From Pseudomonas cavernae (lineage in GTDB: Bacteria > Pseudomonadota > Gammaproteobacteria > Pseudomonadales > Pseudomonadaceae): a stretch of 64,000 nucleotides of DNA. The stretch lies in the NCBI RefSeq assembly GCF_003595175.1, contig NZ_CP032419.1, positions 496,001 through 560,000 on the forward strand. The letters run 5' to 3'. The notes below the pieces were generated by a model that was not told the DNA's origin, made no database searches, and saw only the letters and a program-made list of their open reading frames with translations. Position numbers and translations under genes: made by a program. Shown here piece after piece: positions 3 to 32,457 of the stretch (position 1 is its first letter; each line of letters starts with the position of its first letter).

Positions 3-899
3 CACGACATCCAGAAGGTCTCCGACCTGGGCTTCACCTACACCCTGCTGTGCACCGAAGTGGCGATCACCCCGGAGGAGAACGCGCAGTTCACCGCCTG
101 GGCCAAGGACACCACCGGCGACAAGCTGGGTCTGTTCTTCCATGCCGGCTTCGGCACCCTGGCCGAGAACATCGAGGCGGTGAAGCTGGCCGAGAAGGCC
201 GGTGCCGATATCGTCCTGTTGTCCTACCCGTCGAACTTCTGGCCGACCAGCGAGCAGGAGATCTACGACTACACCAAGACCTTCTGCGATGCCACCGACC
301 TGGCGGTGATGCTGTTCCCTATCCCGCTGTGGGGCTTCGAGCGCGTGCACCCGCAGGGCATGTCGCCCGAGCTGATCCGTCGCCTGCTCGACGAGTGCCC
401 GAACATCGTGGCGATCAAGGCCGAGCAGGGTTTCCCGCATGTTGCCGGGCTGATCGAGACCTATCACCGCTTCGGCAAGGAAACGGTGATCAGCTGCCCG
501 ATCGAGAGCGACATCATCCCGCTGATGAAATTCATGGACCTGCAGTTCTCCGGCACCAGTTACACGCAGTGGATGGGCGACCACTTCACCAAGACCTTCG
601 ACCTGGCCCGCAACGGCAAGTGGGAAGAGGCCATGCAGCTGTACTGGCAGGCGCAGCCTGCGCGCGCCGCCGTCGGTGCCGCCACCGGCGCCTACATGCC
701 CGGCTCCAACTACATCAACCGCGCGCACTGGAAGTACATGGACTGGCTCGCCGGCTTCAACGGCGGCCCGTTGCGTGCCCCGGTTGCCCGCATCCCGGAT
801 CGCATGATGAAAACCCTGCGTCAGGGGCTGATGGCTTCGAAGCTCGAGTGCACCTCGGACGACGACAGCCAGTTCCTGATCGGCCGTTTCCCGTGCTGA
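3..899 (+). CDS. DapA-family (class I) aldolase, 5' partial
   Basis: The frame is open from the first bases of the window, so the start lies to the left. The visible part (about 298 residues) has the TIM-barrel layout of the dihydrodipicolinate synthase / N-acetylneuraminate lyase family. The Schiff-base lysine is visible in the motif NIVAIKAEQG, and the barrel strand that usually carries a Y-P-P-Y-like motif reads LSYPSNF. The stop (897-899) is 10 bp before the aldehyde dehydrogenase, so the two are probably co-transcribed. Family members in aromatic pathways (NahE, PhdJ) are hydratase-aldolases that release an aromatic aldehyde and pyruvate, which an aldehyde dehydrogenase then oxidises. 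That role fits here but is inference. Plain DapA is unlikely given the context and the divergent active-site strand. Confidence 0.75.
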   Translation, partial: HDIQKVSDLGFTYTLLCTEVAITPEENAQFTAWAKDTTGDKLGLFFHAGFGTLAENIEAVKLAEKAGADIVLLSYPSNFWPTSEQEIYDYTKTFCDATDLAVMLFPIPLWGFERVHPQGMSPELIRRLLDECPNIVAIKAEQGFPHVAGLIETYHRFGKETVISCPIESDIIPLMKFMDLQFSGTSYTQWMGDHFTKTFDLARNGKWEEAMQLYWQAQPARAAVGAATGAYMPGSNYINRAHWKYMDWLAGFNGGPLRAPVARIPDRMMKTLRQGLMASKLECTSDDDSQFLIGRFPC

Positions 900-909
900 G
901 GGCCAGGCA

Positions 910-2382
910 ATGAGCATGGATCTGTTGAAAGACAAATCGCTGTTCCGCCAGGCCGCCTTCATCAACGGTCAGTGGGTCGAGCAGACCGCGCACGGCAAGT
1001 ACGCCCTGCGCAACCCGGCGACCGGCGAGGTGCTGGTCGAGCTGCCGGTGTGCCGGGAAGCCGAGACCGAGTTCGCCATCGAGTCGGCCCACGAGGCGTT
1101 CCAGCGCTGGAGCAAGGTCACTGCCAAGCAGCGCGCCGAGATCGTCAACCGCTGGTACCAGCTGGTGGTCGAGCACAAGGAAGACCTGGCGACCCTGATT
1201 ACCCTGGAAGAGGGCAAGCCGCTCGCCGAGGCGCGTGGCGAGATCGACTACGCCGCCTCCTTCCTGCAGTGGTTCTCCGAGGAAGCCAAGCGGGTGCGTG
1301 GCGACGTGATCCCGGCGCCGAAGGACAGCCAGCGGATCGTCGCGCTGAAGCAGCCGATCGGCGTGTGCGCGGCCATCACCCCGTGGAACTTCCCGGCGGC
1401 GATGATCACCCGCAAGGCCGGCCCGGCACTGGCTGCGGGCTGCTCGATGGTGGTCAAGCCGGCCAGCCAGACGCCGCTGACCGCCCTGGCCCTGGCCGAG
1501 CTGGCGCAGCGCGCTGGGGTGCCGACCGGGGTGTTCAGCGTGGTGACCGGCAACGCCACCCGTCCGGTGGGCAACGTGCTGACCGGCCATCCGCTGGTGC
1601 GCAAGATCACCTTCACCGGTTCCACCGAAGTGGGTCGCGTGCTGCTCGCGCAGTCCGCCGAGACGATCAAGAAATGCTCGATGGAGCTGGGCGGCAACGC
1701 GCCGCTGATCGTCTTCGAGGACGCCGATCTGGATCTCGCCGTGGAGGGCATCCTCAACGCCAAGTTCCGCAACACCGGACAGTCCTGCATCGCCGCCAAC
1801 CGGGTGCTGATCCAGGACGGCATCTATGAGCAACTGGCCGCGCGCCTTGCTGCACGCGCCGCCGAGCTCAAGGTTGGCAACGGCCTGGAGGCGGGTGTGC
1901 AGATCGGTCCGATGATCGACGAGGCCGCAGTGGGCAAGGTCGAGGAACACCTGCAGAACGCCGTGGCCGGTGGCGCCCGGGTGCTCGCCGGTGGCCGTCG
2001 TCATGCGCTGGGTGGGGCCTTCTTCGAGCCGACCGTGGTCGCCGACGTGGCGCTCGGCATGACCATCGCCCGCGAGGAGACCTTCGGTCCGGTGATGCCG
2101 CTGCTGCGCTTCCGTGACGAGGCCGAGGCCATCGCGATGGCCAATGACACCGACTTCGGCCTGGCTGCCTACCTGTTCAGCAAGGACGCGGCGCGTATCT
2201 GGCGCACCGCCGAGGCGCTGGAGACCGGCATGGTCGGCATCAACACCGGGTTGATCTCCAGCGAGGTGGCGCCGTTCGGCGGCATCAAGCAGAGCGGTCT
2301 GGGCCGTGAGGGCTCGCACTACGGCATCGATGAGTTCCTCGAGATCAAGTACCTGTGCTGGGACGGAGTGACGCCCGTGTAA
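910..2382 (+). CDS. NAD(P)-dependent aldehyde dehydrogenase (succinate-semialdehyde dehydrogenase-like)
   Basis: A 490-residue protein of normal length for the ALDH superfamily. The oxyanion asparagine sits in TPWNFP (N160), the general base in MELGGN (E259) and the catalytic cysteine in NTGQSC (C293). Overall it looks most like the GabD branch. It lies 10 bp behind the DapA-type aldolase, which suggests that it oxidises the aldehyde the aldolase releases, as NahF does after NahE and PhdK after PhdJ. The exact aldehyde cannot be read from sequence. A simple succinate-semialdehyde dehydrogenase is the main alternative. Confidence 0.9.
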   Translation: MSMDLLKDKSLFRQAAFINGQWVEQTAHGKYALRNPATGEVLVELPVCREAETEFAIESAHEAFQRWSKVTAKQRAEIVNRWYQLVVEHKEDLATLITLEEGKPLAEARGEIDYAASFLQWFSEEAKRVRGDVIPAPKDSQRIVALKQPIGVCAAITPWNFPAAMITRKAGPALAAGCSMVVKPASQTPLTALALAELAQRAGVPTGVFSVVTGNATRPVGNVLTGHPLVRKITFTGSTEVGRVLLAQSAETIKKCSMELGGNAPLIVFEDADLDLAVEGILNAKFRNTGQSCIAANRVLIQDGIYEQLAARLAARAAELKVGNGLEAGVQIGPMIDEAAVGKVEEHLQNAVAGGARVLAGGRRHALGGAFFEPTVVADVALGMTIAREETFGPVMPLLRFRDEAEAIAMANDTDFGLAAYLFSKDAARIWRTAEALETGMVGINTGLISSEVAPFGGIKQSGLGREGSHYGIDEFLEIKYLCWDGVTPV

Positions 2383-2473
2383 CACCCGGAGCCGGCGGCC
2401 CGCCGCACGCCTTGGTGGCGGGTCGCTTCACCGCAACGTGGCATCCAGAACAATCATAAAAGAAGGTAGAGCC

Positions 2474-4162
2474 ATGACACTTCGCAAGAGCAAGTGCGTT
2501 CGTTTACCCGCCGCCCTAGGAGCCGTCCTGGTGGTCGGCGCCCTGTCACCCGCGCAGAGCTGGGCGACGTTCAGCTGGGAGTCGGAGGACGGCCTGAAGG
2601 TCGATTGGACCAACTCGCTGCGCTATTCGGCTGTGTTTCGGGTCAAGGATCGCGAGAGCGAGTTGCTGAGAAATCCCAACCTCGACGACGGCGACCAGAA
2701 CTTCAGCAGCGGCCTGGTTTCCAACCGCGGCGAGCTGCTCAGCGAGCTCGACATCGTCCACGCCAACGGCTTCGGCGCGCGGGCCAGCGCCATGGGTTGG
2801 TACGACACCGTCTACAACCGCGACAACGACAACCCGGGCGTCGCTGGTGGCGCTTTTCCCAATCAGCTTTCCAGCGACTTCGATGAGTTCACTGACTCGA
2901 CCCGCGACCAGCATGGCCGTGACGTCGAGCTGCGCGACGCCTTCGTCTTCGGCCGCCTGCAACTGGGCGACACCGAGCTGACCGGCCGCCTCGGCCAGCA
3001 CTCGCTGGTCTGGGGCGAGAGCCTGTTCTTCGCCAACAACGCGGTGGCCGGTGCGCAGAGCCCGTTCGATGTCACCCGCCTGCTCGACGACCCGACTGCC
3101 GAGGCCAAGGAGTTCGTCCTGCCGGTGCCACAGGTCTCGGCGCAATGGCAGCTCACCGACGGCCTGTCGCTCGGCGCGTACTACCAGTTCCGCTATGTGC
3201 ACAATCGCATCCCGGCATCCGGCAGTTATTTCTCGGTGTCCGACATCGTTGGCGACGGTGCCGAGCGCCTGGTGCTCGATCCGGTCACGGGTCTCTCCGC
3301 CCTTCGTGGCTCCGATCAGGATGCCAAGGACGAAGGCCAGTTCGGTGTGCAGCTACGCTGGCAGGTTGGTGAGTTCGACCTGGGCTTCTACGCCCTGCGC
3401 TTCCACGACAAGGACTTCCAGCAGGTCACCGAGCTGGGGCAGCCGTTCGGCCCGTTCGGTCCGGTACTGCCGACTGGCTACTACCTGGCCTATCAGGAGG
3501 ACACCCAGCTCTATGGTTTCAGCGCCAGCCGTAGTTTCGGCGACCTGAACCTGGCCATGGAGACCTCGATTCGCAAGGACCAGTCGCTGGCCACCACCCA
3601 TGCCGTCGATGCCTCGGCATTGGGCGCTGCCGCACCGGACAACCGCGATCATCCGGCCTACGCCGTTGGCGATACCGCCCACGTCAACCTCTCCACCATC
3701 TGGAGCGTGCCGCGCACCGCGCTGTGGAACGAGGCCAATCTGGTCGCCGAGCTGGCCTGGACGCGCCTGCTCAAGTGCAAGCAGAACTGCGACGACACGC
3801 CGGCCGGCGTCGCCGCTCTGGACCCCAACATCACCCGCGACTCCTGGTCGATGCGTGCGGTGTTCGAGCCGATGTACCGCCAGGCCCTGGTCGGCTGGGA
3901 CATCAGTGTGCCGATGGGCGTCGGCTTTACCCCCGACGGCTCGCGCAACCCGCTTGGCCCGGCGGCGGTTCCGCCGGAGAACGGTGGTGACTTCACCATC
4001 GGCGTCAGCGGCCTGTACATGAGCACCTGGGACCTCAACCTGGCTTACACCCACTTCTTCGGGCCGGCCGGCACCTTCGTGGATGAAACCAATTCGTACA
4101 GCTACCAGCAGGCTCGCCACGACCGCGACTTCGTCGCCTTCACGGTTCGCCGCAGCTTCTGA
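2474..4162 (+). CDS. DUF1302 family protein, probable outer-membrane beta-barrel
   Basis: The ATG at 2474 is chosen over an in-frame one 36 bp upstream because it follows an AGAAGG ribosome site and opens directly into a signal peptide (basic start, hydrophobic stretch, cleavage near SWA). The mature part (about 530 residues) is rich in alternating polar/aromatic strands such as LKVDWTNSLRYSAVF and ends in an aromatic residue (RRSF), typical of outer-membrane barrels. DUF1302 proteins are regularly next to DUF1329 proteins, as here (35 bp apart), and often near hydrophobic-substrate catabolic genes. A role in uptake or surface handling of substrate is inferred; no function is established for this protein. 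Confidence 0.85.
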   Translation: MTLRKSKCVRLPAALGAVLVVGALSPAQSWATFSWESEDGLKVDWTNSLRYSAVFRVKDRESELLRNPNLDDGDQNFSSGLVSNRGELLSELDIVHANGFGARASAMGWYDTVYNRDNDNPGVAGGAFPNQLSSDFDEFTDSTRDQHGRDVELRDAFVFGRLQLGDTELTGRLGQHSLVWGESLFFANNAVAGAQSPFDVTRLLDDPTAEAKEFVLPVPQVSAQWQLTDGLSLGAYYQFRYVHNRIPASGSYFSVSDIVGDGAERLVLDPVTGLSALRGSDQDAKDEGQFGVQLRWQVGEFDLGFYALRFHDKDFQQVTELGQPFGPFGPVLPTGYYLAYQEDTQLYGFSASRSFGDLNLAMETSIRKDQSLATTHAVDASALGAAAPDNRDHPAYAVGDTAHVNLSTIWSVPRTALWNEANLVAELAWTRLLKCKQNCDDTPAGVAALDPNITRDSWSMRAVFEPMYRQALVGWDISVPMGVGFTPDGSRNPLGPAAVPPENGGDFTIGVSGLYMSTWDLNLAYTHFFGPAGTFVDETNSYSYQQARHDRDFVAFTVRRSF

Positions 4163-4197: not shown

Positions 4198-5562
4198 ATG
4201 AAGAAGGTTCTTGCCTTGGGACCAGGCCTGGCGTTGCTCGCCTGCGCTATCGCCCTGCCTGTCCATGCCGCTGTCCCGGCAGATCAGGCGCAGCGCCTGA
4301 AGAGCGGCGACCTGACGCCGTTCGGCGCCGAGAAGGCCGTCAATGCCGATGGCTCGATTCCCGCCTGGACCGGCGGGCTGACCAAGCCGACGCCGGGCGA
4401 CACGCCCGGCGGCCGTCGTGGCGATCCGTTCAAGGACGAAAAGCCGCTGTTCTCGATCGACGCGAAGAACATCGACCAGTACGCCGGCAACCTCACCGAG
4501 GGCACCAAGGCGATGCTGAAGAAGTACCCGGACTACCGCCTCGACGTCTACCCGACGCACCGTACCGCGGCTGCGCCGCAGTGGGTGTACGACAACACCT
4601 TCGCCAACGCCACCCGCGGCACGCTCGATAAGGGCGTGCCCAAGGGCATCTACGGCGGCATTCCCTATCCGATCCCGCAGAGCGCGGAGGAGGTGATGTG
4701 GAACCATGTGCTGCGCTGGCGTGGCGCCCGCTTCCAGCACTTCAACAACTGGTACCAGATTCTCGCCGATGGCCGCGCCGTGCTGGTCACCGACGCGGAA
4801 CTCAACGAGCAGCTGCCGTACTACGATCAGAGCAGCAGCCTCGAACAGTTCGATAGCGAGGGCAAGCCGTTCTGGCAGGTGGCGATCCGCAACATCGGCC
4901 CGCCATTGCGCGCCGGCGAGGCGCTGCTGGCCCATGAGTATCTCGATCCGGACAAGCTGCAGACCTGGGTCTACCTGAAGGGCCAGCGCCGCGTGCGCAA
5001 GCTGCCCAACGGCTGCTGCGACACGCCGACCCCGGCTGCTGCCGGAGTGATGACCTTCGACGAGATGTACACCTGGACCGGTCGCCTGGACCGCTTCGAC
5101 TGGAAACTGATCGGCAAGCAGGAAATGTTCGTCCCCTATAACGCCAACCGTCTGTTGCAGGCGGGTAAGGACGAGGACGCGATCAAGGGGCATTTCCTCA
5201 ATCCCGACTATGTGCGCTGGGAGAAGCACCGCGTCTGGGTGGTCGAGGCCAATGTGCGCAGCGGTCAGCGCCACCAGGCCGCCAAGAGCCGCTACTACTG
5301 CGACGAAGACACCTGGGTTTGCGTACTGGCCGACCGCTGGGATGCCAACGGCCAGCTGTGGCGGACCCTGTGGTCGCAGGTGATCGCGGTACCGGAGTTG
5401 CCGGGCAGCGCCATCGCCAGCTTCGGCTACAACGACCTGCAGGCGGGCACCGCCTTCGTCGCCCAGCTCTACGGCTCCAAGCCCAAGCACTACGTGCTCA
5501 AGGACATGGGCAACGACAAGGTGTTTTCGCCTGACGGCCTGGCCGGCAGCAGCGTGCGCTGA
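4198..5562 (+). CDS. DUF1329 family exported protein (LolA/LolB-like fold expected)
   Basis: A 454-residue protein with a clear signal peptide (MKKVLALGPGLALLACAIALPVHAA). The downstream start GDLTPFGAEKA..NADGSIPAW is characteristic of DUF1329. It follows the DUF1302 gene by 35 bp with a GAGGAG ribosome site and precedes a strong terminator, so the pair closes an operon that begins with the aldolase/aldehyde dehydrogenase genes or earlier. DUF1329 proteins are periplasmic or outer-membrane associated, and family models relate them to lipoprotein-carrier folds. A periplasmic partner for the DUF1302 barrel in moving a hydrophobic compound is a reasonable inference, not shown. Confidence 0.85.
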   Translation: MKKVLALGPGLALLACAIALPVHAAVPADQAQRLKSGDLTPFGAEKAVNADGSIPAWTGGLTKPTPGDTPGGRRGDPFKDEKPLFSIDAKNIDQYAGNLTEGTKAMLKKYPDYRLDVYPTHRTAAAPQWVYDNTFANATRGTLDKGVPKGIYGGIPYPIPQSAEEVMWNHVLRWRGARFQHFNNWYQILADGRAVLVTDAELNEQLPYYDQSSSLEQFDSEGKPFWQVAIRNIGPPLRAGEALLAHEYLDPDKLQTWVYLKGQRRVRKLPNGCCDTPTPAAAGVMTFDEMYTWTGRLDRFDWKLIGKQEMFVPYNANRLLQAGKDEDAIKGHFLNPDYVRWEKHRVWVVEANVRSGQRHQAAKSRYYCDEDTWVCVLADRWDANGQLWRTLWSQVIAVPELPGSAIASFGYNDLQAGTAFVAQLYGSKPKHYVLKDMGNDKVFSPDGLAGSSVR

Positions 5563-5778: not shown

Positions 5779-5967
5779 AAAAGCGGGGTGCAACACATCG
5801 CTGGGGCATGGCCTTTTCATGGCTGCATGCGGCGCTCCTAGCCCTGCATTTTCTAGATAACTGAATTAAAGGCCGGCGCGTAGCTGGTGCCGGAGCCACT
5901 CCATACACTCGGCTCACAACAGTCGGAGTCGCGACTGTGGCGTACAACAACAAGAGGCAATGTGCCC

Positions 5968-7050
5968 ATGAGCTGCAAATTCGACAAGGCGCGCCGCGGC
6001 GTGCTCGGGGCGGTGCTGTGTGGACTGTCTGCCTGCGCCGTCGCATCGGTGCCGGCCGCCGAAGTCGGCGAGCCTGCCAGCCGCGCGGCGCTGGCCTCCA
6101 GCCAGGCGGAAAAATCGGTTCTGCTGGGTGCTGCCCGCACCGACAGTGGTCGGCTGGTTTCCGTTGGCGAGCGTGGTCTGGTGCTGTTGTCCGACGACAG
6201 TGGGGCGCACTGGCGCCAGGCTGTCGTGCCGGTCAGTGTGACGCTCACCGCCGTGCGTTTCGCCGGCCAGCAGGGGGTCGCGGTCGGCCACGCCGGCGTG
6301 GTGCTGACCAGCGGCGATGGTGGCGAGACCTGGGTACAGCGTTTGGATGGCCGCCGGGCGGCCGAAGTGGCACTGCGCGACGCCCAGGCGAGCAAGGACG
6401 AACAGTTGATCTCCAGCGCCCAGCTGCTGGTCGACGAGGGCCCGGACAAGCCGTTCCTCGATGCCGCCATCGGTGCCGACGGCCAACTGCTGGTGGTCGG
6501 TGCCTACGGCATGGCCTTCGCCTCGCCGGACATGGGGCAGAGCTGGAACTCCTGGAGCGGGCGCCTGGACAATCCCACCGGCCTGCATCTCTACGCCGTG
6601 CGCCAGCGCGGCCAAGCGCTGCTGGTCGCCGGCGAGCGCGGTCTGGTGCTGAGCTCGGTGGACGCTGGGGCCAGCTTCAAGCGCCTGGAAGTTCCCTATC
6701 AGGGCAGTCTGTTTACGGCCGAGCTACCGGGCGATGGCGACATCGTTGTCGCCGGCCTCAAGGGCAGCCTGCTGCGCAGCCGCGATGGTGGCGCCAGCTG
6801 GCAGCGCCTGGACGCCGCAGATGCCTCTTCCTTCACCGCTTCGACCCTGGGGCGTGACGGTTCGCTCTATCTGGTGACCCAGGCCGGCCATGTGCTCGGT
6901 CTGCAACGGGACGGGCTGGTGCAGTTGAGCAGCCAGGCCATGCCCTCGCTCAACGGCATCCTGCCGGTCAATCCGCAAAGCGTCGTGCTGCTCAGCAACC
7001 TCGGCCTGACCACGCTGCAGCTGAACGCTGGTACGGAGGAGCAGCCATGA
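5968..7050 (+). CDS. YCF48/BNR-repeat exported protein
   Basis: The ATG at 5968 is preferred to an upstream in-frame ATG because GAGG lies 10 bp before it and it opens into a signal peptide (basic residues, then GVLGAVLCGLSACAVASVPAA). The 360-residue product has at least five BNR-like blades, visible as repeated GERGLVLLS.D.GAHW, GHAGVVLTSGDGGETW, GAYGMAFASPDMGQSW, GERGLVLSSVDAGASF and GLKGSLLRSRDGGASW. YCF48-like beta-propellers are often scaffold or assembly factors. Its stop overlaps the start of the MMPL transporter (ATGA), so the two proteins are probably made together and may act as a complex in the envelope. The function is not established. Confidence 0.85.
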   Translation: MSCKFDKARRGVLGAVLCGLSACAVASVPAAEVGEPASRAALASSQAEKSVLLGAARTDSGRLVSVGERGLVLLSDDSGAHWRQAVVPVSVTLTAVRFAGQQGVAVGHAGVVLTSGDGGETWVQRLDGRRAAEVALRDAQASKDEQLISSAQLLVDEGPDKPFLDAAIGADGQLLVVGAYGMAFASPDMGQSWNSWSGRLDNPTGLHLYAVRQRGQALLVAGERGLVLSSVDAGASFKRLEVPYQGSLFTAELPGDGDIVVAGLKGSLLRSRDGGASWQRLDAADASSFTASTLGRDGSLYLVTQAGHVLGLQRDGLVQLSSQAMPSLNGILPVNPQSVVLLSNLGLTTLQLNAGTEEQP

Positions 7051-11446: not shown

Positions 11447-11470
11447 CACCCAGAACAAGAGAACAGAGTG

Positions 11471-11686
11471 ATGGCGACTGAGAGAGTTGAAGTGATTCTG
11501 GATACCCAGAAGTGCCAGGGCTATGGCCTGTGCCTGGGGGCGGACGACGTCTTCGAGCTGGATGCGGCGGCCAACATCGCCCATCTCAAGCAGCGTTTCG
11601 TCGACATCGCGCGCAAGGGCGAGTTCGAGCAACTGGTGCGCGACTGCCCGGCCGCCGCCATCAGCCTTCGTGTGGTTCAAGAGTGA
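11471..11686 (+). CDS. [3Fe-4S]-type ferredoxin of the dioxygenase
   Basis: A 71-residue ferredoxin with C15-x5-C21 and C59-P. The usual central cysteine of a [4Fe-4S] CxxCxxC motif is replaced by glycine/tyrosine (CQGYGLC), the pattern of [3Fe-4S] ferredoxins. The ATG at 11471 is taken rather than the GTG codon just before it. Lying 24 bp after the beta subunit, it is the expected electron carrier to the Rieske centre. A [3Fe-4S] ferredoxin combined with a glutathione-reductase-type reductase (seen at 28025-29251) defines what has been called type V ring-hydroxylating systems (e.g. phenanthrene dioxygenase PhdABCD); the diterpenoid DitA system of Pseudomonas is also similar. Confidence 0.9.
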   Translation: MATERVEVILDTQKCQGYGLCLGADDVFELDAAANIAHLKQRFVDIARKGEFEQLVRDCPAAAISLRVVQE

Positions 11687-23094: not shown

Positions 23095-24126
23095 ATGACC
23101 TTCAATCCCGGCAAGAAGCTGTATATCTCCGATGTGACCCTGCGCGATGGCAGCCACGCGATCCGCCACCAGTACTCGATCAAGAACGTCCAGGACATCG
23201 CCCGTGCGCTGGACCAGGCCAAGGTCGACTCCATCGAAGTCACCCACGGCGATGGCCTGCAAGGCTCCAGCTTCAACTACGGCTTTGGTGCGCATACTGA
23301 CCTGGAGTGGATCGAGGCAGCCGCCGAGGTGATCGAATACGCCAAGATCACCGTGCTGCTGCTGCCCGGCATCGGTACCGTCCACGACCTCAAGGCGGCG
23401 TATGAGGCGGGGGCGCGTTCGGTACGTATCGCCACCCATTGCACCGAGGCGGATGTATCCCGGCAGCACATCGAATACGCCCGTGAACTGGGTATGGACA
23501 CCGTTGGCTTCCTGATGATGAGCCACATGATCCCGGCTGAGCAGCTGGCGGCCCAGGGCAAGCTGATGGAGAGCTACGGTGCCCAGTGCATCTACATGGC
23601 TGACTCCGGTGGCGCGATGAACATGCAGGACATCCGTGACCGCATGCGCGCCTTCAAGGCGGTGCTCAATCCCGAGACCCAGACCGGCATGCACGCGCAC
23701 CACAACCTCAGCCTGGGTGTGGCCAACTCGATCACGGCGGTGGAAGAGGGCTGCGACCGCATCGATGCCAGCCTGGCTGGAATGGGCGCGGGTGCTGGCA
23801 ACGCGCCGTTGGAGGTGTTCATCGCCGCGGCTGAGCGTCTGGGCTGGAACCACGGCACCGATCTGTACCGCCTGATGGACGCCGCTGACGACCTGGTTCG
23901 TCCGTTGCAGGATCGCCCGGTGCGCGTTGACCGCGAAACCCTGGCCCTGGGCTACGCAGGCGTGTACTCCAGCTTCCTGCGGCACGCCGAAGTCGCCGCC
24001 GCCAAGTACGGGCTGAAGACCCTCGACATCCTGGTCGAACTGGGTCGGCGGCGCATGGTCGGCGGCCAGGAAGACATGATCGTCGACGTGGCCCTCGACC
24101 TGCTGGCCGCGCGCACGCCTAGCTGA
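23095..24126 (+). CDS. dmpG: 4-hydroxy-2-oxovalerate aldolase
   Basis: A 343-residue DmpG/BphI/MhpE aldolase with an AAGGAGAT ribosome site. The active-site TLRDGSHA near residue 17 and the metal-binding histidines in GMHAHHNLS are intact, as is the C-terminal communication domain ([18 protein letters not shown]). It splits 4-hydroxy-2-oxovalerate into pyruvate and acetaldehyde, which passes to the preceding enzyme. It is the last gene of the meta-cleavage operon. Confidence 0.96.
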
Positions 24127-24186: not shown

Positions 24187-24326
24187 CAGGCCGTGTGAAA
24201 ACTACTGCGCTCGGTTATGCGGCGTTAAAAACAGGCTCAAAATGCTCATTTACAGCTCGTAAACTGCGCTTTTTCGCCTGTTTTTGCCTTGCCTAACCTT
24301 CGCTCGCTACGTTTTCACACAGCCTG
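24187..24326. repeat. Interspersed palindromic repeat, copy 1
   Basis: A 140-bp element bounded by a 16-bp inverted repeat (CAGGCCGTGTGAAAAC at 24187 against 24311-24326, 15 of 16 match). It contains the core CTCATTTACAGCTCGTAAAC, which recurs almost unchanged at 25618 and 46822 in the same orientation, and ends with TTGCC units before CTTCGCTCGCTACGTTTT. It fills the gap between the aldolase and the Bcr-type pump. No coding potential. Confidence 0.8.
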
Positions 24327-24373
24327 CCGTGCCGGGTTTTTTCTTGCCATTCTTCACTCCAAGGAAATCTGCC

Positions 24374-25558
24374 TTGAACAGCACAACCACCGCGCTGCGC
24401 CCCATTCCCCTGCCGCTGTTGTTCCTGCTCGGCAGCCTGGCGGCCATCGCGCCGCTGTCCACCGACATGTACCTGCCTGCGTTCGCCGCGATTCGTCAGG
24501 AAATCGGCCTGGCTGCTGGTGACGTGGAGTTAAGCTTCTCGTCCTATTTCATCGGCATGCTGATTGGCATGCTCTGCTATGGACCGGTCAGCGACCGCAT
24601 CGGCCGCAAGCTGCCGCTGCTGGTCGGCCTCGGCCTGTACGTGTGTGCCAGCGCCGCCATCACCCAGGCCGGCGATCTCACCAACCTGGTGTTCTGGCGC
24701 TTCCTCCAGGGCCTGGGTGGCTGCGCCGGTGCGGTGCTGACCTTCGCCATCATCCGCGACCGCTGTGACATGGCACAGAGCGCCCACAACATCTCCCTGC
24801 TGGTCCTGATCATGGGCGCGGCGCCGGTACTGGCACCGCTGCTGGGCGGCTGGGTGATGGAACTGGCGGGCTGGCGCAACGTGTTCACCGCGTTGAGCCT
24901 GTTCGGCGTGGCGCTGTTTCTCTATGCGTTTGTGGTGCTCGACGAGCGTCCGGTCGCCCACCACGGCGACAGCGGGTTTTTCGCGGTGCTGCGTGAATAC
25001 CTGGATCTGCTGAAGTCCAGCCGCTTCATGACCTTCGTGCTGATCCAGGCGCTGGTGATGGGCGGCATGTTCAGCTACATCATTGGTTCGCCGTCCGTAT
25101 TGATGGATATCCACGGCATCTCGCCAGGCATGTTCGGTTACTTCTTCGGCGCCAACGCCATCGGTGTGATGATCGCCGGGCAGCTCAACCGCGCGTTGCT
25201 CAAGCGCTTCGCGCCGGTCGAGATTCTGCGGCCGGCGTTGTGGCTGCCGCTGCTCGGCGGAGCGCTACTGGTGATCGACGCGCAACTGGCCGAAAGCACC
25301 CTGTGGCTGGTGCTGCCGGGGTTCTTCCTCGCGGTGTGCAGCGTGGGCTTCGTCAATCCCAACGCTTCCGCGCTGGCCATGGCCGATCAGGGACGCCGCG
25401 CCGGCAAGGCCTCGGCGATTCTCAATGGCGCCATCTTCGGTTTCGGCATGCTCGCCGGTCTGCTGCTGAACCTGTGCTACACCGGCACCACCGCGACGGT
25501 GGCCTGGCTGATGTTCGGCTGTGCCATGCTGGCCATCTGCGTCGGGCGCCGTCTCTGA
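24374..25558 (+). CDS. Bcr/CflA-family MFS drug efflux transporter
   Basis: A TTG start at 24374 with AAGGAA 8 bp upstream is preferred; the longer frame would begin inside the repeat. The 394-residue product has 12 helices and the Bcr/CflA hallmark in helix 1, SLAAIAPLSTDMYLPAFAAI, and the MFS loop motif GPVSDRIGRKLPL. It probably exports a toxic compound. The gene is bracketed by two copies of the same interspersed repeat (24187-24326 and 25553-25728), the second overlapping its stop codon, so it may have moved as a unit independently of the catabolic genes. Confidence 0.88.
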   Translation: MNSTTTALRPIPLPLLFLLGSLAAIAPLSTDMYLPAFAAIRQEIGLAAGDVELSFSSYFIGMLIGMLCYGPVSDRIGRKLPLLVGLGLYVCASAAITQAGDLTNLVFWRFLQGLGGCAGAVLTFAIIRDRCDMAQSAHNISLLVLIMGAAPVLAPLLGGWVMELAGWRNVFTALSLFGVALFLYAFVVLDERPVAHHGDSGFFAVLREYLDLLKSSRFMTFVLIQALVMGGMFSYIIGSPSVLMDIHGISPGMFGYFFGANAIGVMIAGQLNRALLKRFAPVEILRPALWLPLLGGALLVIDAQLAESTLWLVLPGFFLAVCSVGFVNPNASALAMADQGRRAGKASAILNGAIFGFGMLAGLLLNLCYTGTTATVAWLMFGCAMLAICVGRRL

Positions 25559-25762: not shown

Positions 25763-25768
25763 CGATCA

Positions 25769-27700
25769 TCAGGTGCGGAAGCCCGCCACCGCGGCATTCA
25801 GCGTGCTGCCGAGCTGTTCCAGTTCCTGTACCGAACCTTCCAGTCGACCGCTGGCCTGGCTGCTCTGCTCGGCGATCTCGCGTACCCGCTCCATGCTGCG
25901 GCCGACCTGTTCGGCCACCGTGCTCTGCTCCTCGGCGGCGGCAGCGATCTGCTGGCTCATCTGCTCGACGGTCGACACTGCCGCGGTGATGGCCTGCAGC
26001 GCCTGCGAGGTCTGGGCCGTCAGCCCCACGCTCTCGCGGGTCAGCGACTGGCTGCCCTGTAGGCGTTCGGCGGCCTGCTCGGTGAGGCGGCGCAACTGGT
26101 GGACTATGGTGGCGATCTCATCGGTGGAGCTCTGCGTACGATGGGCCAGGCTGCGCACCTCGTCGGCCACCACCGCGAAGCCGCGGCCATGCTCGCCGGC
26201 GCGGGCGGCCTCGATGGCGGCATTGAGCGCCAGCAGGTTGGTCTGCTCGGCCAGGGCGTTGATCACGTCGAGCACCTTGCCGACCGCATGGCTCTCCTGC
26301 ATCAGCAGCGCCATGGCCTCGGAGCAACCGCCCATCTCCACGGCCAGGTGATCGATCTGGGCACTGGCCTGGCGCACCAGTTGATCGCCGCGCTGCGCCT
26401 CGCGGTTGGCCTGATCGACCGCTGCGCAGGTGTCGACGGCGTTGCGTGCGACCTGCTGCGCGGTGGCGGTCATCTGCTGCATGGCGGTCGCCGCCAGTTC
26501 GGTTTCCGCGTTCTGCTTTTCCACGCCCTGGGTGGTGTGGTCGGCAACCTGCACCACGCCGTGGGCGGCCTGGTTCAACTGGCCGACGCCCTGGCCGATG
26601 CGCCCGACCAGGCTGCGCAGGCTGTCGAGCATGCTGGCCACACTGGCGATCAGCTGACCCAGTTCATCGCGGCGTCCCTGGGCATCGATCTGCGCGCTGA
26701 GGTCGCCGGAGGTGACGCGCTGGGTCAGTTCCAGGGCCTGGCGCAGCGGCTGCAGGATCAGGTGGCGGATCAGCACGGCGGCGCCGATGCCGAAGGCGAG
26801 CGACAGCAGCAGGATCACGCCGAGCAGGCGCGAGACCTGCTGGCTCATTTGCTGCCAGGTCTGCTCCTGGGCCGCCATCACTGCGCCGAGCCGCGCGCTG
26901 ACCTGCTCGGAGGCCTGGTTCATCGCCGTCTGGCTGTCGGCCGCGCGGGTTCTGCCCGAGGCGAAGCGCTCGAATGCCTGGCGATACTCGTTCAGCGCCT
27001 GGTTCGCCTGGGCCAGCGATTCCTGTTCGGCACCTTCCAGCTGGCGTGACAGGCTGTCCAGGTAGGTGAGCAGCTCGGTCATGCGGGTTTCCCAGTCATC
27101 GTGGGCGCGATGGCTGCCCTCGTGGGCGAAGTACAGTTCGCTGTCGCGCAGGTTGGCCAGCTTGTCGCGCAGCATCGCGGCCTGCTCGAGCAGCATCATG
27201 CGCGTCGACGGTATGGGCTGGCCCTGCTCGGCCAGGGTATTGAGCGCGTCGAGCTGGTCGAGCAATACATCGGTGAAGCGCTCGCCAAGCGTTTGCGCCA
27301 GTTCCTGCATGCGCATCCGCGCTTCGCGCTCCTCCCGCAGGGCCTGGGCATACTGCTGGAACTGGGCGAGATAAGCCTTGGCGGCATTACTGGAACTCGC
27401 CGCATCGGCATTGGCCGCGTGGTGCTGCTGGAGCAGGCCGACCAGTTCGTCGATCAGCGCGGCGACCCGCTTGGCTGCGTCGGTGGCCAGCGTCAGGCCG
27501 AACTCCTTCTCCGTGGCACGCGCCTGCAGCATCAGCGCGTGCACGCCACCCAGCTCGCGGATGGTCTCGCCGCGCGCCTCCAGCCGGTGCAGCGCATGGA
27601 AGGCGGTGAGTGCCACGCCCAGGGTCGAGAGCAGCACCAGGCCGAAGCCGAGCGAGAGTTTTACCCCAACCGAAAGATTGCCGAGTACGCGATTGAACAT
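25769..27700 (-). CDS. Methyl-accepting chemotaxis protein with large helical (HBM-like) sensor domain
   Basis: A 643-residue chemoreceptor with a membrane helix at about 11-33, a 250-residue helical periplasmic domain, a second helix near 292-312, a HAMP domain and a cytoplasmic signalling domain with the conserved tip [23 protein letters not shown]. The length and all-helical character of the sensor region suggest the helical bimodular (HBM) class, known from organic-acid sensors such as McpS. It is read opposite to the catabolic genes. Sensing of the aromatic substrate or of a pathway acid is possible by proximity only. Confidence 0.92.
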
Positions 27701-28024: not shown

Positions 28025-29251
28025 TCAGCCGAGCAGGCTTTTCAGATCCACGCGGGTGTCGGCAATCAGCGCCTTGTCCGGCGAGATGCCGCCTGCCAGC
28101 AGCTTGCGGCTCTGGATATGCTCCAGTGGCTGGTTGATGGAGTCGACGGCGATCAGCGTCTGCTCGCGGTAGTGGAACACCGAGAAGCGTCCCTGGGCGG
28201 GGTCGCCTCGGGTGACGCAATCGGTCCGGCCGATCGACAGGCCGACCATCTGCAGCTTGACCTCGCCCTGGTCGGACCAGAACCAGGGCACCGCCTGATA
28301 GCGTGCCTCGCTGCCGCAGATGACCTGGGCAACCAGACGCGCCTGGTCGTTGGCATTCTGGATCGATTCCAGGCGCACGCGCGCGCCACCGGCATAGGCA
28401 TGTTCATGGGATGCGCAGTCGCCGATGGCGAAGACGTTCGGCGCTGAGGTGCGCAGCTGGGCATCGACCAGGATGCCGTTGCCGCACTCGATACCGGCCG
28501 CCTGGGCCAGCTCGCTGTTGGCGATACCCCCCGCACCGACGATGACAAGGTCCGCCGGTCGCTCGCCCGAGCAGCAGCGCACGCCGCTGACCCGGCGCTG
28601 TTCGCCGATGAAGGCTTCGACGCAGGCATTCAGTTCGATGGTCATCCCCTTGGCGCGGTGCTTCTGCGTGACGAACTCGGAAACCTCCGGGGCCACTGAG
28701 CGCTCCATGATCCGCGAAGCGGTCTCCAGTACCGTGACCTGCTTGCCGAGTTGGCGTGCGGTGACGGCCAGCTCGAGGCCGATGAATCCGCCGCCCACTA
28801 CGACCACCGCTTGGCAGTTGGCCAGGTTTTGGCGGATGCGCCGGGCATCCGCGAGGGTGCGCAGGGTCTCGATGCCCTGCAGGTCGTTGCCGGGCAGTGG
28901 CAGGGTGCGTGCGCGGGCGCCGGTGGCCAGGATCAGGTGCTCATAAGCCAGAGCTTCGCCATGGCTCAGGGCCACGCGCTGGTTGGCCGTGTCGATGGCG
29001 GTGACGCGCACGCCGAGGCGCAGGTCGATCTGCTTTTCGTCGTAGAAGCTTTCCTGCTCGAGCAGCAGCTTCTTTTCGTCGTCCGCACTGTCGCTGCTGA
29101 TGAAGGCCTTGGACAGCGGCGGGCGGTGGTAGGGGTAGTCGGCTTCATCACTGAGCAGGGTGATCTTGCCGGTATATTCCTGCGCGCGCAGGGCCGAGGC
29201 CAGGCTCACCCCACCATGCCCGGCGCCAACGATGACGACACCTTTATTCAT
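28025..29251 (-). CDS. Ferredoxin-NAD(P)+ reductase, glutathione-reductase type
   Basis: The ATG at 29251 starts directly at the FAD fold MNKGVVIVGAGHGGVSLA; an upstream extension has no family character. The 408-residue product has the first GxGxxG, a second NAD-binding motif VVVVGGGFIGLELA, ATGAR and the C-terminal FAD motif VFAIGDCA. This matches BphA4/PhdD/rubredoxin-reductase-type enzymes. It would pass electrons from NADH to the [3Fe-4S] ferredoxin encoded at 11471, although the two genes are 16 kb apart and in opposite orientation. No other dioxygenase reductase is present in the window. Confidence 0.92.
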   Translation of the reverse strand: MNKGVVIVGAGHGGVSLASALRAQEYTGKITLLSDEADYPYHRPPLSKAFISSDSADDEKKLLLEQESFYDEKQIDLRLGVRVTAIDTANQRVALSHGEALAYEHLILATGARARTLPLPGNDLQGIETLRTLADARRIRQNLANCQAVVVVGGGFIGLELAVTARQLGKQVTVLETASRIMERSVAPEVSEFVTQKHRAKGMTIELNACVEAFIGEQRRVSGVRCCSGERPADLVIVGAGGIANSELAQAAGIECGNGILVDAQLRTSAPNVFAIGDCASHEHAYAGGARVRLESIQNANDQARLVAQVICGSEARYQAVPWFWSDQGEVKLQMVGLSIGRTDCVTRGDPAQGRFSVFHYREQTLIAVDSINQPLEHIQSRKLLAGGISPDKALIADTRVDLKSLLG

Positions 29252-29352: not shown

Positions 29353-30132
29353 TCAAACCACCAGATACTGCTTGAGCAGCTTCTCCACTTGCGCTGGTGC
29401 CTCGTGGTTGCAGATGTGGCCGACGCTGCCGATCACGGCGAGCTGCATGCGCGGATTCTGCGCAGCCATCTGGCGCATGTCGGCCACCGGGCCGCCGCCA
29501 TGATCGTGCTCGCCGGCCACCAGCAGTGCCGGTACCTGGATATCGTTGAAACGCTCGGCGAAGTCCATTTCGATGAAGGCGCGGACATAGGCGAGGTAGC
29601 CTTCCAGGGTGGTGCCTTTCATCATCGTGCGCAGCAGCTGGTCGACCTCGGGGCGGGCCGCCCTGAACTCCGGGCTCAGCCAGCGATCGACGGTGACGTC
29701 GGCCAGCTTGTCCATGCCCTGGGCCTGCGCGGCTTCGCAGCGGGCCTGCCAGAATTCGCGGCGATCATCAGGCTGGCGCGGTCGGCAGCAGAAGGCGACC
29801 AGGCGCTCGATGCGCTGCGGATGTTCGAGGGCCAGGGCCAGGGCCAGCGAACCGCCGAAACCCAGGCCGACCACGCTGGAGCGCTCGATGCCGAGCGTGT
29901 CCCACAGCTGCACGACGCCTTCGACGATGTCGGCGAAGCGGCAATCCTGCGGCGGCAGCGGGCTTTGGCCATGCCCCCAGGGGTCAAAGCACAGCACCCG
30001 AAAATGCCCGGCCAGCGCCTCGGCCTGCTGGGCCCAGAAGCTCGCATCGTTGCCGATGCCGGGGATGAAGGTCAGCCATGGCGCGCCTTCCGGGCCCTGG
30101 ATGACATGGTGAAACGTCGGCAGTGTCTTCAT
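29353..30132 (-). CDS. Alpha/beta hydrolase fold protein lacking the nucleophile serine
   Basis: A 259-residue protein of the 3-oxoadipate enol-lactonase / C-C hydrolase type. The nucleophile elbow reads VVGLGFGGSLA: the serine expected in G-x-S-x-G is glycine at residue 91 (codon GGT). The acid D210 (GEHDHGG) and histidine H239 (SVGHICNHE) remain in place. The fold is otherwise intact, with no frameshift. It is 101 bp upstream of the reductase on the same strand, so probably co-transcribed. It may be catalytically dead, act by a serine-independent mechanism, or bind an intermediate. Confidence 0.85.
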   Translation of the reverse strand: MKTLPTFHHVIQGPEGAPWLTFIPGIGNDASFWAQQAEALAGHFRVLCFDPWGHGQSPLPPQDCRFADIVEGVVQLWDTLGIERSSVVGLGFGGSLALALALEHPQRIERLVAFCCRPRQPDDRREFWQARCEAAQAQGMDKLADVTVDRWLSPEFRAARPEVDQLLRTMMKGTTLEGYLAYVRAFIEMDFAERFNDIQVPALLVAGEHDHGGGPVADMRQMAAQNPRMQLAVIGSVGHICNHEAPAQVEKLLKQYLVV

Positions 30133-30489: not shown

Positions 30490-31620
30490 ATGACAACGCT
30501 CATTGATACCGTCCTGATCGTCGGCGGCGGCTTTTCCGGTATGTCCGCCGCCATCGAATTGCGCAAGCGCGGGGTGGCGGTAGACCTCGTCGAGATCGAT
30601 CCGGGCTGGCGCAGCTATGGCGCCGGTATCAGCATCGGCGGCCCCACGCTGCGGGCCTTTCGTACGCTCGGTATCCTCGAGCGTTTCCTGGTCGAGGGTT
30701 ACGCCTGCGACGGCCTGGATATTTTCTCGCAGGACGGCCAGCTGCTCACCCAGGTGCCGACGCCGCGTATCGCCGGGGAGGACGTGCCAGGTAGTGGTGC
30801 CATCATGCGCCCGGTGCTGGCGAGGATTCTGGCCGATGCGACGCGTGTCTGCGGCACGTCCGTGCGACTGGGTTGCACGGTGACGGCGTTGGAGCAGCAC
30901 CCTGATCGGGTGGACGTGAGCTTCACCGATGGCAGCCAGCGCCGCTATGACCTGGTGATAGCCGCCGATGGTCTGTACTCGGCAATGCGCGAGCGGATCC
31001 TGCCCGATGCGCCGAAGCCGAACTACAGCGGACAGGGTGTATGGCGCGCCGTGTTGCCGCGTCCGGCCGAGATCACCAAGACCATTCTGTGGGTCGGTAG
31101 CGACGTGAAGGTCGGTCTCAACCCGGTCTCGCAGGACGAGATGTATCTGTTCGTCAACGAGAACCGCCCGACCAATGAATACATCCCGCCCGAGGAGTTC
31201 CTGCCGCGGCTGCGTGGCCTGCTCGAACCCTTTTCCGCCGCCGAAGTACGCCAGGCCAGCGCGCAGTTGAACGAGGATTCGTTGGTTATCTATCGGCCTC
31301 TTGAGGGATTGCTGGTGACGCAACCCTGGTACCAGGGGCGTGTGGTGCTGATCGGCGATACGGTGCATGCCACCACGCCGCACCTGGCTTCCGGCGCCTG
31401 CATCGGCATCGAGGATGCCATCGTGCTGGCCGAGGAACTGGAGGCTGCCGCCAGCCTGCCATCCGCTTTGCAGCGCTTTCAGCAGCGCCGCTGGGAACGT
31501 TGCCGCATGGTCGTACAAAACTCCGCCCGCCTAGGCGAGATCGAGATCAGCGGCGGCGACAAGCAGGAGCACATGCGCATCATGCACGACTCTTTCCAGG
31601 CCCTGGCCTGTCCGATTTGA
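30490..31620 (+). CDS. FAD-dependent aromatic monooxygenase (second copy)
   Basis: A 376-residue class A flavoprotein hydroxylase. The N-terminal IVGGGFSGMSAAIEL fold, the DG motif in AADGLYSAMR and the GD motif in VLIGDTVHATTPHLASGACIGIEDA are intact. It aligns along its length with the protein at 18756 (shared YGAG/LGAG..I.GPTLRA, PWYQGRV), so the two are paralogues with probably different substrates or positions of attack. The long upstream extension of this frame is rejected because it is antisense to the hydrolase and has no ribosome site. It forms an operon with the SDR 27 bp downstream. Confidence 0.9.
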   Translation: MTTLIDTVLIVGGGFSGMSAAIELRKRGVAVDLVEIDPGWRSYGAGISIGGPTLRAFRTLGILERFLVEGYACDGLDIFSQDGQLLTQVPTPRIAGEDVPGSGAIMRPVLARILADATRVCGTSVRLGCTVTALEQHPDRVDVSFTDGSQRRYDLVIAADGLYSAMRERILPDAPKPNYSGQGVWRAVLPRPAEITKTILWVGSDVKVGLNPVSQDEMYLFVNENRPTNEYIPPEEFLPRLRGLLEPFSAAEVRQASAQLNEDSLVIYRPLEGLLVTQPWYQGRVVLIGDTVHATTPHLASGACIGIEDAIVLAEELEAAASLPSALQRFQQRRWERCRMVVQNSARLGEIEISGGDKQEHMRIMHDSFQALACPI

Positions 31621-31647
31621 ACCGATGCACCACGTTGGGAGACGTTC

Positions 31648-32457
31648 ATGCAGTTACTGAAAGATGATGTGGTACTGGTCACCGGTGGTGGTTCGGGGTT
31701 GGGCCTGGGTGTGGCGCGCTATTGCCGGGCCGAGGGCGCCGAGGTGGTGATCTTCGAGATATCCGCGGAAAAAGTTCGGCAGCTCAGGGAGGAATTCGGC
31801 CCCGAGGTACTGGTCATCCAGGGCGACGTGACCAAGCTGGCCGATCTTCGGGCCTGCCGTGCGGCCATTCTCGAGCGCCATGGCCGGCTCAACGCGTTGA
31901 TCGGCGCGCAGGGCATCTTCGACGGCAATATCCCGTTGCTGCAGATGCCGGAGGATCGCCTGGATACCCTGTTCGACGAGATCTTCCACGTCAACGTCAA
32001 GGGCTACATGCTCTGCGCCCGGGTGTTCTTCGACCTGCTGCAGGCGACCGAGGGCGCGATGGTGCTGACCACTTCGACGGCCGCCTATGCCGCCGATGGC
32101 GGCGGGCTGGTCTATACGGCCAGCAAGGGCGCCATTCGCAGCCTGGTTAACCAGCTGGCGTTCGAGTTCGCGCCGCATGTCCGGGTCAATGGCGTGGCGC
32201 CTGCTGGCATCGCCAACAGCCAACTGAGCGGTCCCCGTTCGCTGGGACTCGAGGGGCAGAAGCAGTCCGACATCCCCAAGGATGCCTTCCTCTCGATGTT
32301 CCGCTCGTTGAGCCTGCTGCAGGAGTTGCCGACGGCCGAAGATCACGGGCCGATCTATGCCTTCCTGGCGTCGCGGCACAACAAGATCATGACCGGGCAA
32401 ACCGTGGTGGCGGATCAGGGCCTGCTTAATCGCGCCGTGCTGAAAACGGCAGGCTGA
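31648..32457 (+). CDS. cis-dihydrodiol dehydrogenase (SDR family)
   Basis: A 269-residue short-chain dehydrogenase with TGGGSGLG (12-19) for NAD binding and the catalytic set N116, S143, Y156 and K160 (VYTASKGA). The late segment APAGIANSQLSGPRSLG corresponds to the region typical of cis-2,3-dihydrodiol dehydrogenases (BphB/NahB), and the C-terminus HNKIMTGQTVVADQG is normal. It would oxidise the cis-dihydrodiol from the Rieske dioxygenase to a catechol with NAD+ reduction. No other dihydrodiol dehydrogenase is present in the window, which supports this job. Confidence 0.88.
   Translation: MQLLKDDVVLVTGGGSGLGLGVARYCRAEGAEVVIFEISAEKVRQLREEFGPEVLVIQGDVTKLADLRACRAAILERHGRLNALIGAQGIFDGNIPLLQMPEDRLDTLFDEIFHVNVKGYMLCARVFFDLLQATEGAMVLTTSTAAYAADGGGLVYTASKGAIRSLVNQLAFEFAPHVRVNGVAPAGIANSQLSGPRSLGLEGQKQSDIPKDAFLSMFRSLSLLQELPTAEDHGPIYAFLASRHNKIMTGQTVVADQGLLNRAVLKTAG

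Follow-up and report, generated by a model that had tools for sequence, protein, structure and literature searches.

A conserved catabolic unit with two ring-cleavage blocks in Pseudomonas cavernae, tentatively assigned to a flavonoid-like phenolic

The window analysed here, a stretch of 64,000 bp from the single-contig, 4.95 Mb genome of Pseudomonas cavernae (positions 1-64000, corresponding to C1:496001-560000), carries about 25 genes that we confidently regard as one conserved catabolic unit with two ring-cleavage blocks, as is evident from its gene content, its intact catalytic motifs, and the linkage and conservation of its genes (Table 1). The substrate class, the assignment of the blocks to rings and each single reaction are proposed from sequence similarity: we tentatively favour, with somewhat less than even confidence, a mobile, self-contained pathway for a hydrophobic flavonoid-like phenolic, such as one with a phenyl group attached to a benzopyranone or comparable fused ring. 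This substrate is suggested by the kinship of the extradiol dioxygenase EDO1 and the FAD monooxygenase FMO2 with enzymes of fde-like operons, by the presence of the same transport quartet in such operons, and by the occurrence of related ornithine cyclodeaminase (OCD)-family, aldolase and aldehyde dehydrogenase genes (the trio) beside fde/ifc-type genes. Genes were located by open reading frame (ORF) listing, codon-position GC and Pfam, and cross-checked with NCBIfam.

When contigs from one genome per species were scanned with the Rieske alpha subunit, 13 loci (69-90% identity) were obtained, in Pseudomonas, Stutzerimonas, Serpens and Acinetobacter. In a gene-by-gene comparison with eight relatives, one of which (P. 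alkylphenolica) has its copy split over contigs and only in part visible, 20 genes were all present in the other seven (four Pseudomonadaceae and three Acinetobacter), which rules out chance or fragmentary genes. The original prediction, made from the sequence alone, had described the cluster as dispersed; however, the genera agree in gene content and the order inside blocks is preserved, so that it forms one unit. The two ring openings predicted at the same time are supported by the two ring-cleavage blocks within it. The EDO2-hydrolases-FMO1 genes form a separate block, located on the opposite strand in Acinetobacter, as two independent one-ring pathways that travel together would do, but this explanation is improbable, since the blocks stay joined in seven of the eight relatives where visible, in two families and at different chromosomal sites. 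The unit is found at differing sites in P. lalucatii, Pseudomonas UMAB-08, Stutzerimonas V81 and Serpens, and is rearranged in Acinetobacter. It is rare: of 298 genomes of the same genus, three have the Rieske alpha subunit at E 1e-120 or better, and of 369 genomes of the class, two have the small VOC protein, the own genome included in both counts.

The left end of the unit is the OCD-family gene, which starts about 1.2 kb left of the window and precedes the aldolase, whose frame begins at -120 (genome C1 495880) and thus outside the window. We counted the OCD gene into the unit because the same OCD-aldolase-aldehyde dehydrogenase order is present in Acinetobacter, UMAB-08, P. lalucatii, Stutzerimonas V81 (where the aldolase is cut by the fetched stretch, with the remainder on locus L012) and Serpens. 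The right end is a LysR gene, at 33409. LysR likewise bounds the unit on this side in UMAB-08, P. alkylphenolica and P. lalucatii; in V81 no cluster gene follows it, whereas the Serpens copy has it inside the cluster. Genes beyond the unit vary, with type VI secretion genes in UMAB-08 and the rpoD side in the window genome, where the cluster is followed on the right by tRNA-Met, a GGDEF/EAL protein and rpoD-, dnaG- and tsaD-type genes, an arrangement known from Pseudomonas.

EDO1 and FMO2 are 51-58% and 57-69% identical, respectively, to neighbouring gene pairs in the fde-like operons of Burkholderia anthina, Azospirillum B510, Diaphorobacter HDW4B and Massilia putida, where fde-like is a label given from gene content and the comparison was confined to these operons. 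All four operons encode a VOC protein, a small Rieske protein, an FAD monooxygenase (FMO), an FAA hydrolase and an epimerase, three of the four a cyclase-family protein and two a cupin. The DUF1302-DUF1329-YCF48-MMPL set is common to three of the four records, and that of Azospirillum also has a chemoreceptor. In trees that omit loci L007, L010, L011, L015, L016 and L018 and include several very long branches, FMO2 clusters with three of the four fde-like FMOs and an Allorhizobium copy (support 96/98), joined by that of Massilia (81/65), while FMO1 belongs to a separate clade (97/99). Both extradiol dioxygenases (EDOs) have invariant His, His and Glu columns in the seven aligned sequences, which we take to be the iron ligands of type I extradiol dioxygenases. 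The plasmid search with EDO1 matched 225 records, of which seven were opened: the four fde-like ones, a Bradyrhizobium elkanii record (EDO, Rieske protein, FMO and the trio), an Allorhizobium record without annotation, and a Pseudomonas CIP-10 plasmid record with a VOC protein, FAA hydrolase, cyclase and oligopeptidase, in which no FMO was seen. A copy 99% identical to EDO1 was observed in Pseudomonas sp. LS44, on a contig of 4461138 bases where FMO2 reaches 80%, a possible mosaic.

FdeE and IfcA are described as hydroxylating the flavonoid A ring, with FdeC/IfcB acting next (PMC11303751, PMC11069340, PMC8552027); a role of FdeE as C8 hydroxylase, served by FdeD as carrier, is described together with A-ring fission (PMC8552027, PMC11303751). 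IfcA shares 36.3% identity with FdeE and IfcB 65.8% with FdeC (PMC11069340). A naringenin-type cluster is reported in P. thivervalensis SC5 (PMC8515041), and the term fde does not occur in the text of PMC4440368.

The second line of evidence is the trio. The aldolase matched 74 plasmid records, 25 of them at 44% identity or more, including three from legume-root Variovorax (aldolase 72%); six loci were opened, and in four of these the trio stands beside clear fde/ifc-type genes. Two Variovorax loci (L071, L075) carry LysR (50%), OCD (60-62%), aldolase (72%) and aldehyde dehydrogenase (73-74%) genes ahead of a cupin, an FAA hydrolase and an epimerase that share 60-67% identity with their counterparts in the Diaphorobacter operon, a Roseomonas locus (L072) has the trio accompanied by an FMO, an EDO and an oligopeptidase, and that of B. 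elkanii (L023) has it with an EDO, a Rieske protein, an FMO (35%) and a cupin (37%). Judged from its alignment, the aldolase is a distinct DHDPS subfamily that keeps Lys180 and has Phe146 where the DHDPS matches shown have the usual Tyr, both residues being invariant in all seven sequences. The aldehyde dehydrogenase passes the succinate-semialdehyde dehydrogenase subfamily model TIGR01780 and does not reach the GabD equivalog NF008415 (733 vs 828). The authors of the ifc study isolated 2-hydroxy-5-(4-hydroxyphenyl)-4H-pyran-4-one (X3) and left the gene for the X2 to X3 step open (PMC11069340), a step that the trio could fill; our literature search found no paper in which four of five terms for the trio enzymes and flavonoids occur together. 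For the small VOC protein, the structure model (pLDDT 46.7) is too weak for function assignment, and the plasmid search gave 25-33% identity among the matches listed (15 of 30 records).

The other half of the unit resembles, in sequence, the bph, hca and cum type of phenyl-ring catabolism. The Rieske alpha subunit has the features of a ring-hydroxylating dioxygenase, with intact CRH (96), CPYH (116) and mononuclear-iron DAYHVSTAH (221) motifs. The dihydrodiol dehydrogenase, of the SDR family, has BphB as its best PDB match but falls under the cut-offs of both the HcaB and BphB NCBIfam models (TIGR03325 220.8 vs 459.85), hydrolase 2 is 54% identical to CumD over 270 residues, and the hydratase, DmpG and DmpF proteins of the meta-cleavage lower pathway all exceed curated cut-offs. 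The enzymes listed in the original prediction (aldolase, aldehyde dehydrogenase, Rieske alpha and beta subunits, ferredoxin, reductase, SDR, two extradiol dioxygenases and two FMOs) are confirmed by Pfam, as is its hydratase-aldolase-acylating dehydrogenase route, consisting of an FAA-type hydratase, DmpG and DmpF. Its two intact C-C hydrolases were also recovered by their GQSLG (16526-17410) and GNSFG (17881-18717) elbows, next to a third hydrolase with GLGFG and no nucleophilic Ser. That inventory did not include the DUF1302-DUF1329-YCF48-MMPL set, the chemoreceptor, the two MFS transporters and LysR, nor the OCD gene and aldolase start outside the window.

A naphthalene-like logic on a fused bicycle would read the same genes differently: the Rieske oxygenase and SDR would give a bicyclic catechol, EDO1 would cleave it, the aldolase and aldehyde dehydrogenase would yield an aromatic acid, FMO1 would convert this to a catechol, EDO2, the hydrolases, hydratase, DmpG and DmpF would finish, and FMO2 would let hydroxylated substrates in by a side route. 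At most a few genes separate EDO1 from the ring-hydroxylating dioxygenase in 13 of 13 loci, the genes required (ring-hydroxylating dioxygenase, EDO1, aldolase, aldehyde dehydrogenase, small VOC protein, FMO1, EDO2, hydrolases and lower pathway) are common to Pseudomonadaceae and Acinetobacter, and the best PDB match of the alpha subunit, a comparison in line with that proposed with the original prediction, is the Rhodococcus naphthalene dioxygenase 2b1x; the extradiol enzymes, named in the same proposal, are not BphC by TIGR03213. We nevertheless consider this reading unlikely, and the kinship with naphthalene or phenanthrene catabolism drawn at the outset is not supported, as the results on the aldolase, aldehyde dehydrogenase, FMOs and isomerase speak against it and EDO1 and FMO2 lead towards operons of the flavonoid type. 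PhdJ (PDB 6daq) does not appear in the 46 sequence matches obtained with the aldolase, which has Phe for the usual Tyr and shows no particular closeness to the NahE/PhdJ hydratase-aldolases; in a fold search with a weak model (pLDDT 55.6), 6daq took rank 48 and did not stand out from other DHDPS folds. The aldehyde dehydrogenase is over the succinate-semialdehyde subfamily cut-off, the FMOs score 82.8 (FMO1) and 103.4 bits (FMO2) against 446.35 for the salicylate monooxygenase model TIGR03219, and a NahD-type (2-hydroxychromene-2-carboxylate) isomerase had no Pfam match among the ORFs scanned, the whole unit being without a dedicated profile search. The absence of a GST-type isomerase, as originally noted, stands for the window ORFs scanned, but a GST-fold gene is located left of the OCD gene (L004 17629-18498) and another inside the P. 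lalucatii cluster, after EDO1 (L051 10216-10890); the two are 34% identical, and none was found in any other of the eight relatives compared.

In the favoured pathway for a flavonoid-like phenolic, the DUF1302-DUF1329-YCF48-MMPL proteins would carry the substrate across the outer membrane, and the chemoreceptor and LysR would sense it or a derivative. On the fused ring, FMO2 would hydroxylate beside an existing hydroxyl group and EDO1 would then cleave the catechol; for a 7-hydroxychromone, 8-hydroxylation and C8-C8a fission would leave a side chain of the arylidene-pyruvate type, from which the class I (Lys) aldolase could release an aldehyde and pyruvate and the dehydrogenase form the acid. 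The OCD enzyme, the DHDPS-family aldolase and the semialdehyde dehydrogenase would thus trim the side chain, with the small VOC protein as a possible isomerase. On the phenyl ring, the Rieske oxygenase, ferredoxin, reductase and BphB/HcaB-like dehydrogenase would produce a catechol, FMO1 may supply one from phenolic forms or intermediates, EDO2 would cleave the phenyl-derived catechol, hydrolases 1 and 2 would split the product, and the hydratase, DmpG and DmpF would yield pyruvate and acetyl-CoA. Biphenyl dioxygenases are described as attacking the flavone B ring (PMC8119895, PMC8552027). A stronger version, in which the unit is a complete mobile route for both flavonoid rings, with the Rieske system for the phenyl ring, the FdeE/FdeC-type pair for the fused ring, and the trio as a general module trimming fused-ring products and a candidate for X2 to X3, is possible but doubtful.

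Several observations weigh against a flavonoid-like substrate. The kinship was measured against operons labelled from gene content and not against H. seropedicae FdeE/FdeC, and the databases contain relatives that are closer to EDO1 and FMO2 (for FMO2, 72-78% in Thauera, Noviherbaspirillum and Massilia, neighbourhoods outside the comparison). No tblastn match at 1e-4 to an FdeD-type small Rieske protein was found in the window or L004, nor one here to the Diaphorobacter cupin, FAA hydrolase, cyclase, epimerase and oligopeptidase-type hydrolase. The stretches read from three Acinetobacter genomes lack FMO2, the transport quartet and the chemoreceptor, and carry instead a third FMO (37-39% to FMO2) and, in A. 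bouvetii, the one tested, a PF13557 gene, so that the 20-gene core could serve another substrate. EDO1 adjoins the Rieske genes, which also fits attack of the fused ring by the Rieske enzyme, whose alpha subunit is closest in the PDB to a naphthalene dioxygenase. Among the trio loci, that of Corynebacterium (L073) has weak fde-type matches only and that of Novosphingobium (L074) none.

Such oxygenases have relaxed specificity, and another two-ring plant- or lignin-type phenolic (a stilbene, biaryl, lignan or dihydrochalcone) might be degraded via the same enzyme classes. The transport set would suit hydrophobic compounds in general: growth of P. putida on Tween 20 is described as requiring DUF1302, DUF1329 and two further genes, and such proteins were modelled to form a transport system (PMC10866462). 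We rate this as quite unlikely; nothing found ties the unit to any of these compounds, and the EDO1 and FMO2 relatives whose neighbourhoods were read sit in fde-like operons. Two published systems were rejected as counterparts. The coumarin pathway of Pseudomonas NyZ480 is described as xenA plus mhp (PMC13181038), and no OYE-type or MhpB-type Pfam match occurs among the ORFs scanned; degradation in the dibenzofuran strain Pvy is attributed to ndo genes (PMC8022969).

Mobility is indicated by the flanks. In P. lalucatii and Stutzerimonas V81 the gene adjoining guaA towards the cluster encodes a tyrosine integrase, and in V81 TraG-, TrbE- and TrbB-type genes adjoin the OCD end (integrase, guaA and conjugation genes at L053 3681-17811). 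In V81 at least, the cluster is therefore probably carried by an integrative conjugative element. Serpens also has a tyrosine integrase near its cluster copy; in the window genome and UMAB-08 no integrase was recognised among the listed ORFs, the flanks as a whole being without a Pfam scan.

The host possesses a separate fde-like operon (C1:1704776-1732000; L068, L069), which includes a transport quartet of its own and a chemoreceptor that shares 58% identity with the window one. Of the seven genomes searched with the EDO of this operon, two have a second copy, the host and P. alkylphenolica, which argues that the window unit is independent of it. The operon further holds LysR genes, an oligopeptidase-type hydrolase, an EDO, a Rieske protein, an FMO, an FAA hydrolase and an epimerase, as well as a Rieske oxygenase and reductase related to Azospirillum genes. 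A third host locus (C1:2575545-2587727; L070) encodes DUF1302/DUF1329/YCF48/MMPL-type proteins, an alpha/beta hydrolase (36% to hydrolase 2), and DmpG, DmpF and hydratase proteins 73-86% identical to the window copies, i.e. another meta-cleavage set. Within the unit, hydrolase 3 has a GLGFG motif invariant in five of five aligned sequences and keeps the GHI His, and may be a non-hydrolytic or cofactor-free enzyme. Relatives of the 244-aa protein (46-49%) sit elsewhere in the cluster, beside hydrolase 3, in Stutzerimonas and Serpens, and the lipocalin-like gene between the two C-C hydrolases is kept in the Acinetobacter versions read.

Table 1. Genes of the catabolic unit, in window coordinates (negative positions lie left of the window).
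Feature	Position	Strand	Evidence
OCD-family NAD(P)H enzyme	-1187 to -147		PF02423; precedes aldolase
DHDPS-family aldolase, 339 aa	1..899 in window, start -120	+	PF00701; Lys180 and Phe146 invariant 7/7
Aldehyde dehydrogenase, succinate-semialdehyde subfamily	910..2382	+	PF00171; TIGR01780 696.7 bits, cut-off 646.35
DUF1302 outer-membrane transport protein (putative role)	2438..4162	+	PF06980; 38-45% to three fde-like operons
DUF1329 periplasmic transport protein (putative role)	4198..5562	+	PF07044; 53-63% to three fde-like operons
YCF48-like BNR repeat protein	5887..7050	+	PF14870; 48% to three fde-like operons
MMPL/RND transporter	7047..9485	+	PF03176; 65-70% to three fde-like operons
Rieske dioxygenase alpha subunit	9543..10943	+	PF00355/PF00848; best PDB 2b1x, 288 bits; Rieske motifs, DxxHxxxxH
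Rieske dioxygenase beta subunit	10916..11446	+	PF00866
Small ferredoxin, CQGYGLC, Fer4_15	11468..11686	+	
Single-domain VOC protein, 183 aa, possible isomerase (role guessed)	11690..12241	+	PF13669; 69-95% identity in relatives
EDO1, FdeC-like two-domain extradiol dioxygenase	12308..13264	+	PF00903; 51-58% to four fde-like operons
MFS exporter, loosely tied to unit	13613..14821	-	PF05977; present in 1/8 relatives
EDO2, second extradiol dioxygenase	15426..16400	+	PF00903; 63-81% in 7 relatives where visible
Alpha/beta hydrolase 1, start uncertain	~16526..17410	+	PF00561; GQSLG elbow
Lipocalin-like protein	17425..17868	+	PF13924; 60-89% in 7 relatives where visible
C-C hydrolase 2, CumD-like	17881..18717	+	145/270 residues identical to CumD 2d0d; GNSFG elbow
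FMO1, FAD monooxygenase	18756..19889	+	NF005313 424 bits, cut-off 372; 68-87% in 7 relatives where visible, incl. Acinetobacter
2-Hydroxypenta-2,4-dienoate (2-oxopent-4-enoate) hydratase, DmpE model	19893..20753	+	PF01557; TIGR03220 433.1 bits, cut-off 408.8
244-aa protein, no Pfam match	20858..21592	+	46-48% relatives in 3/8
Acylating acetaldehyde dehydrogenase, DmpF type	22142..23083	+	PF09290; TIGR03215 469.8, cut-off 282.25
4-Hydroxy-2-oxovalerate aldolase, DmpG type	23095..24126	+	PF00682, PF07836; TIGR03217 596.1, cut-off 286
MFS transporter	24284..25558	+	PF07690; 66-80% in 2/8 relatives, 38-40% in three Acinetobacter
Methyl-accepting chemotaxis protein, HBM sensor domain	25769..27700	-	58% to chemoreceptor beside host fde-like operon
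Ferredoxin reductase, probably of Rieske system	28025..29251	-	PF07992, PF14759; nearest NCBIfam AndAa and HcaD, both below cut-off
Alpha/beta hydrolase 3, GLGFG, no nucleophilic Ser	29353..30132	-	PF00561; nearest NCBIfam PcaD 208 bits, cut-off 256
FMO2, FdeE-like FAD monooxygenase	30490..31620	+	57-69% to FMOs of four fde-like operons; NF005313 531.6, cut-off 372
cis-Dihydrodiol dehydrogenase (SDR)	31648..32457	+	best PDB BphB 2y93, E 1.5e-54; HcaB 246, BphB 221 bits (cut-offs 450, 460)
LysR regulator, right end of unit	32498..33409	-	PF03466/PF00126; 50% to LysR beside OCD-aldolase-aldehyde dehydrogenase in Variovorax

According to PMC8552027, direct evidence for a role of biphenyl-type dioxygenases in flavonoid utilisation was lacking, fde was the only reported genetic determinant (2021), and further A-ring hydroxylation and fission genes were suggested as a possible complement to the dioxygenase. 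The unit unites phenyl-ring and A-ring-type enzymes in one conserved, mobile entity, which makes this complement idea testable by gene deletion, and its trio supplies named candidates for the step left without a gene by the ifc authors (PMC11069340). The cluster thereby mixes pollutant-type with flavonoid-type enzymes. As originally predicted, its gene order is unlike that of the nah, bph, dit and mhp clusters, and the searches made turned up no cluster of published substrate with which it is syntenic throughout.

Compared with nah/phd, the unit shares reaction types and an alpha subunit whose nearest PDB relative is a naphthalene dioxygenase, but differs by its succinate-semialdehyde-type dehydrogenase and an aldolase that is not PhdJ-like by sequence. 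The hca system for phenylpropionate and cinnamate provides the nearest NCBIfam models of the alpha and beta subunits and the SDR, all of which remain under cut-offs, and is not known to include such extradiol enzymes, FMOs or a trio. Hydrolase 2 is of the CumD type, whereas in the rest of the unit no cumene-pathway similarity was seen. The bph ferredoxin is of the Rieske type, that of the unit Fer4_15; also unlike bph, the extradiol dioxygenases are not BphC (TIGR03213 39.0 and 32.4 bits vs a cut-off of 366), the BphD model TIGR03343 gives 173.7 vs 462, and gene order is different. Similar to bph, including the BPDO_AVS region described in PMC8552027, are the alpha and beta subunits of the ring-hydroxylating dioxygenase, the BphB-like SDR, the C-C hydrolase, the hydratase and the DmpG/DmpF types. 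The isoflavone ifc cluster of Variovorax V35 is described as having an FMO followed by an FdeC-like dioxygenase (PMC11069340), families that match those of the unit, and related trios are found on legume-root Variovorax plasmids; no cupin was found in the window unit, which has a Rieske system, an SDR and a meta-cleavage lower pathway. With the naringenin fde operon of H. seropedicae SmR1, the unit shares an FdeE-like FMO and FdeC-like extradiol pair, a LysR gene and, in three of the four fde-like records, the transport quartet; in contrast, by tblastn, it is without the FdeD-type Rieske protein, cupin, FAA hydrolase, cyclase and epimerase, and has the OCD-aldolase-aldehyde dehydrogenase trio, the Rieske dioxygenase and the second ring-cleavage block instead. 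The unit works like a mix of fde and bph, and is a member of neither.

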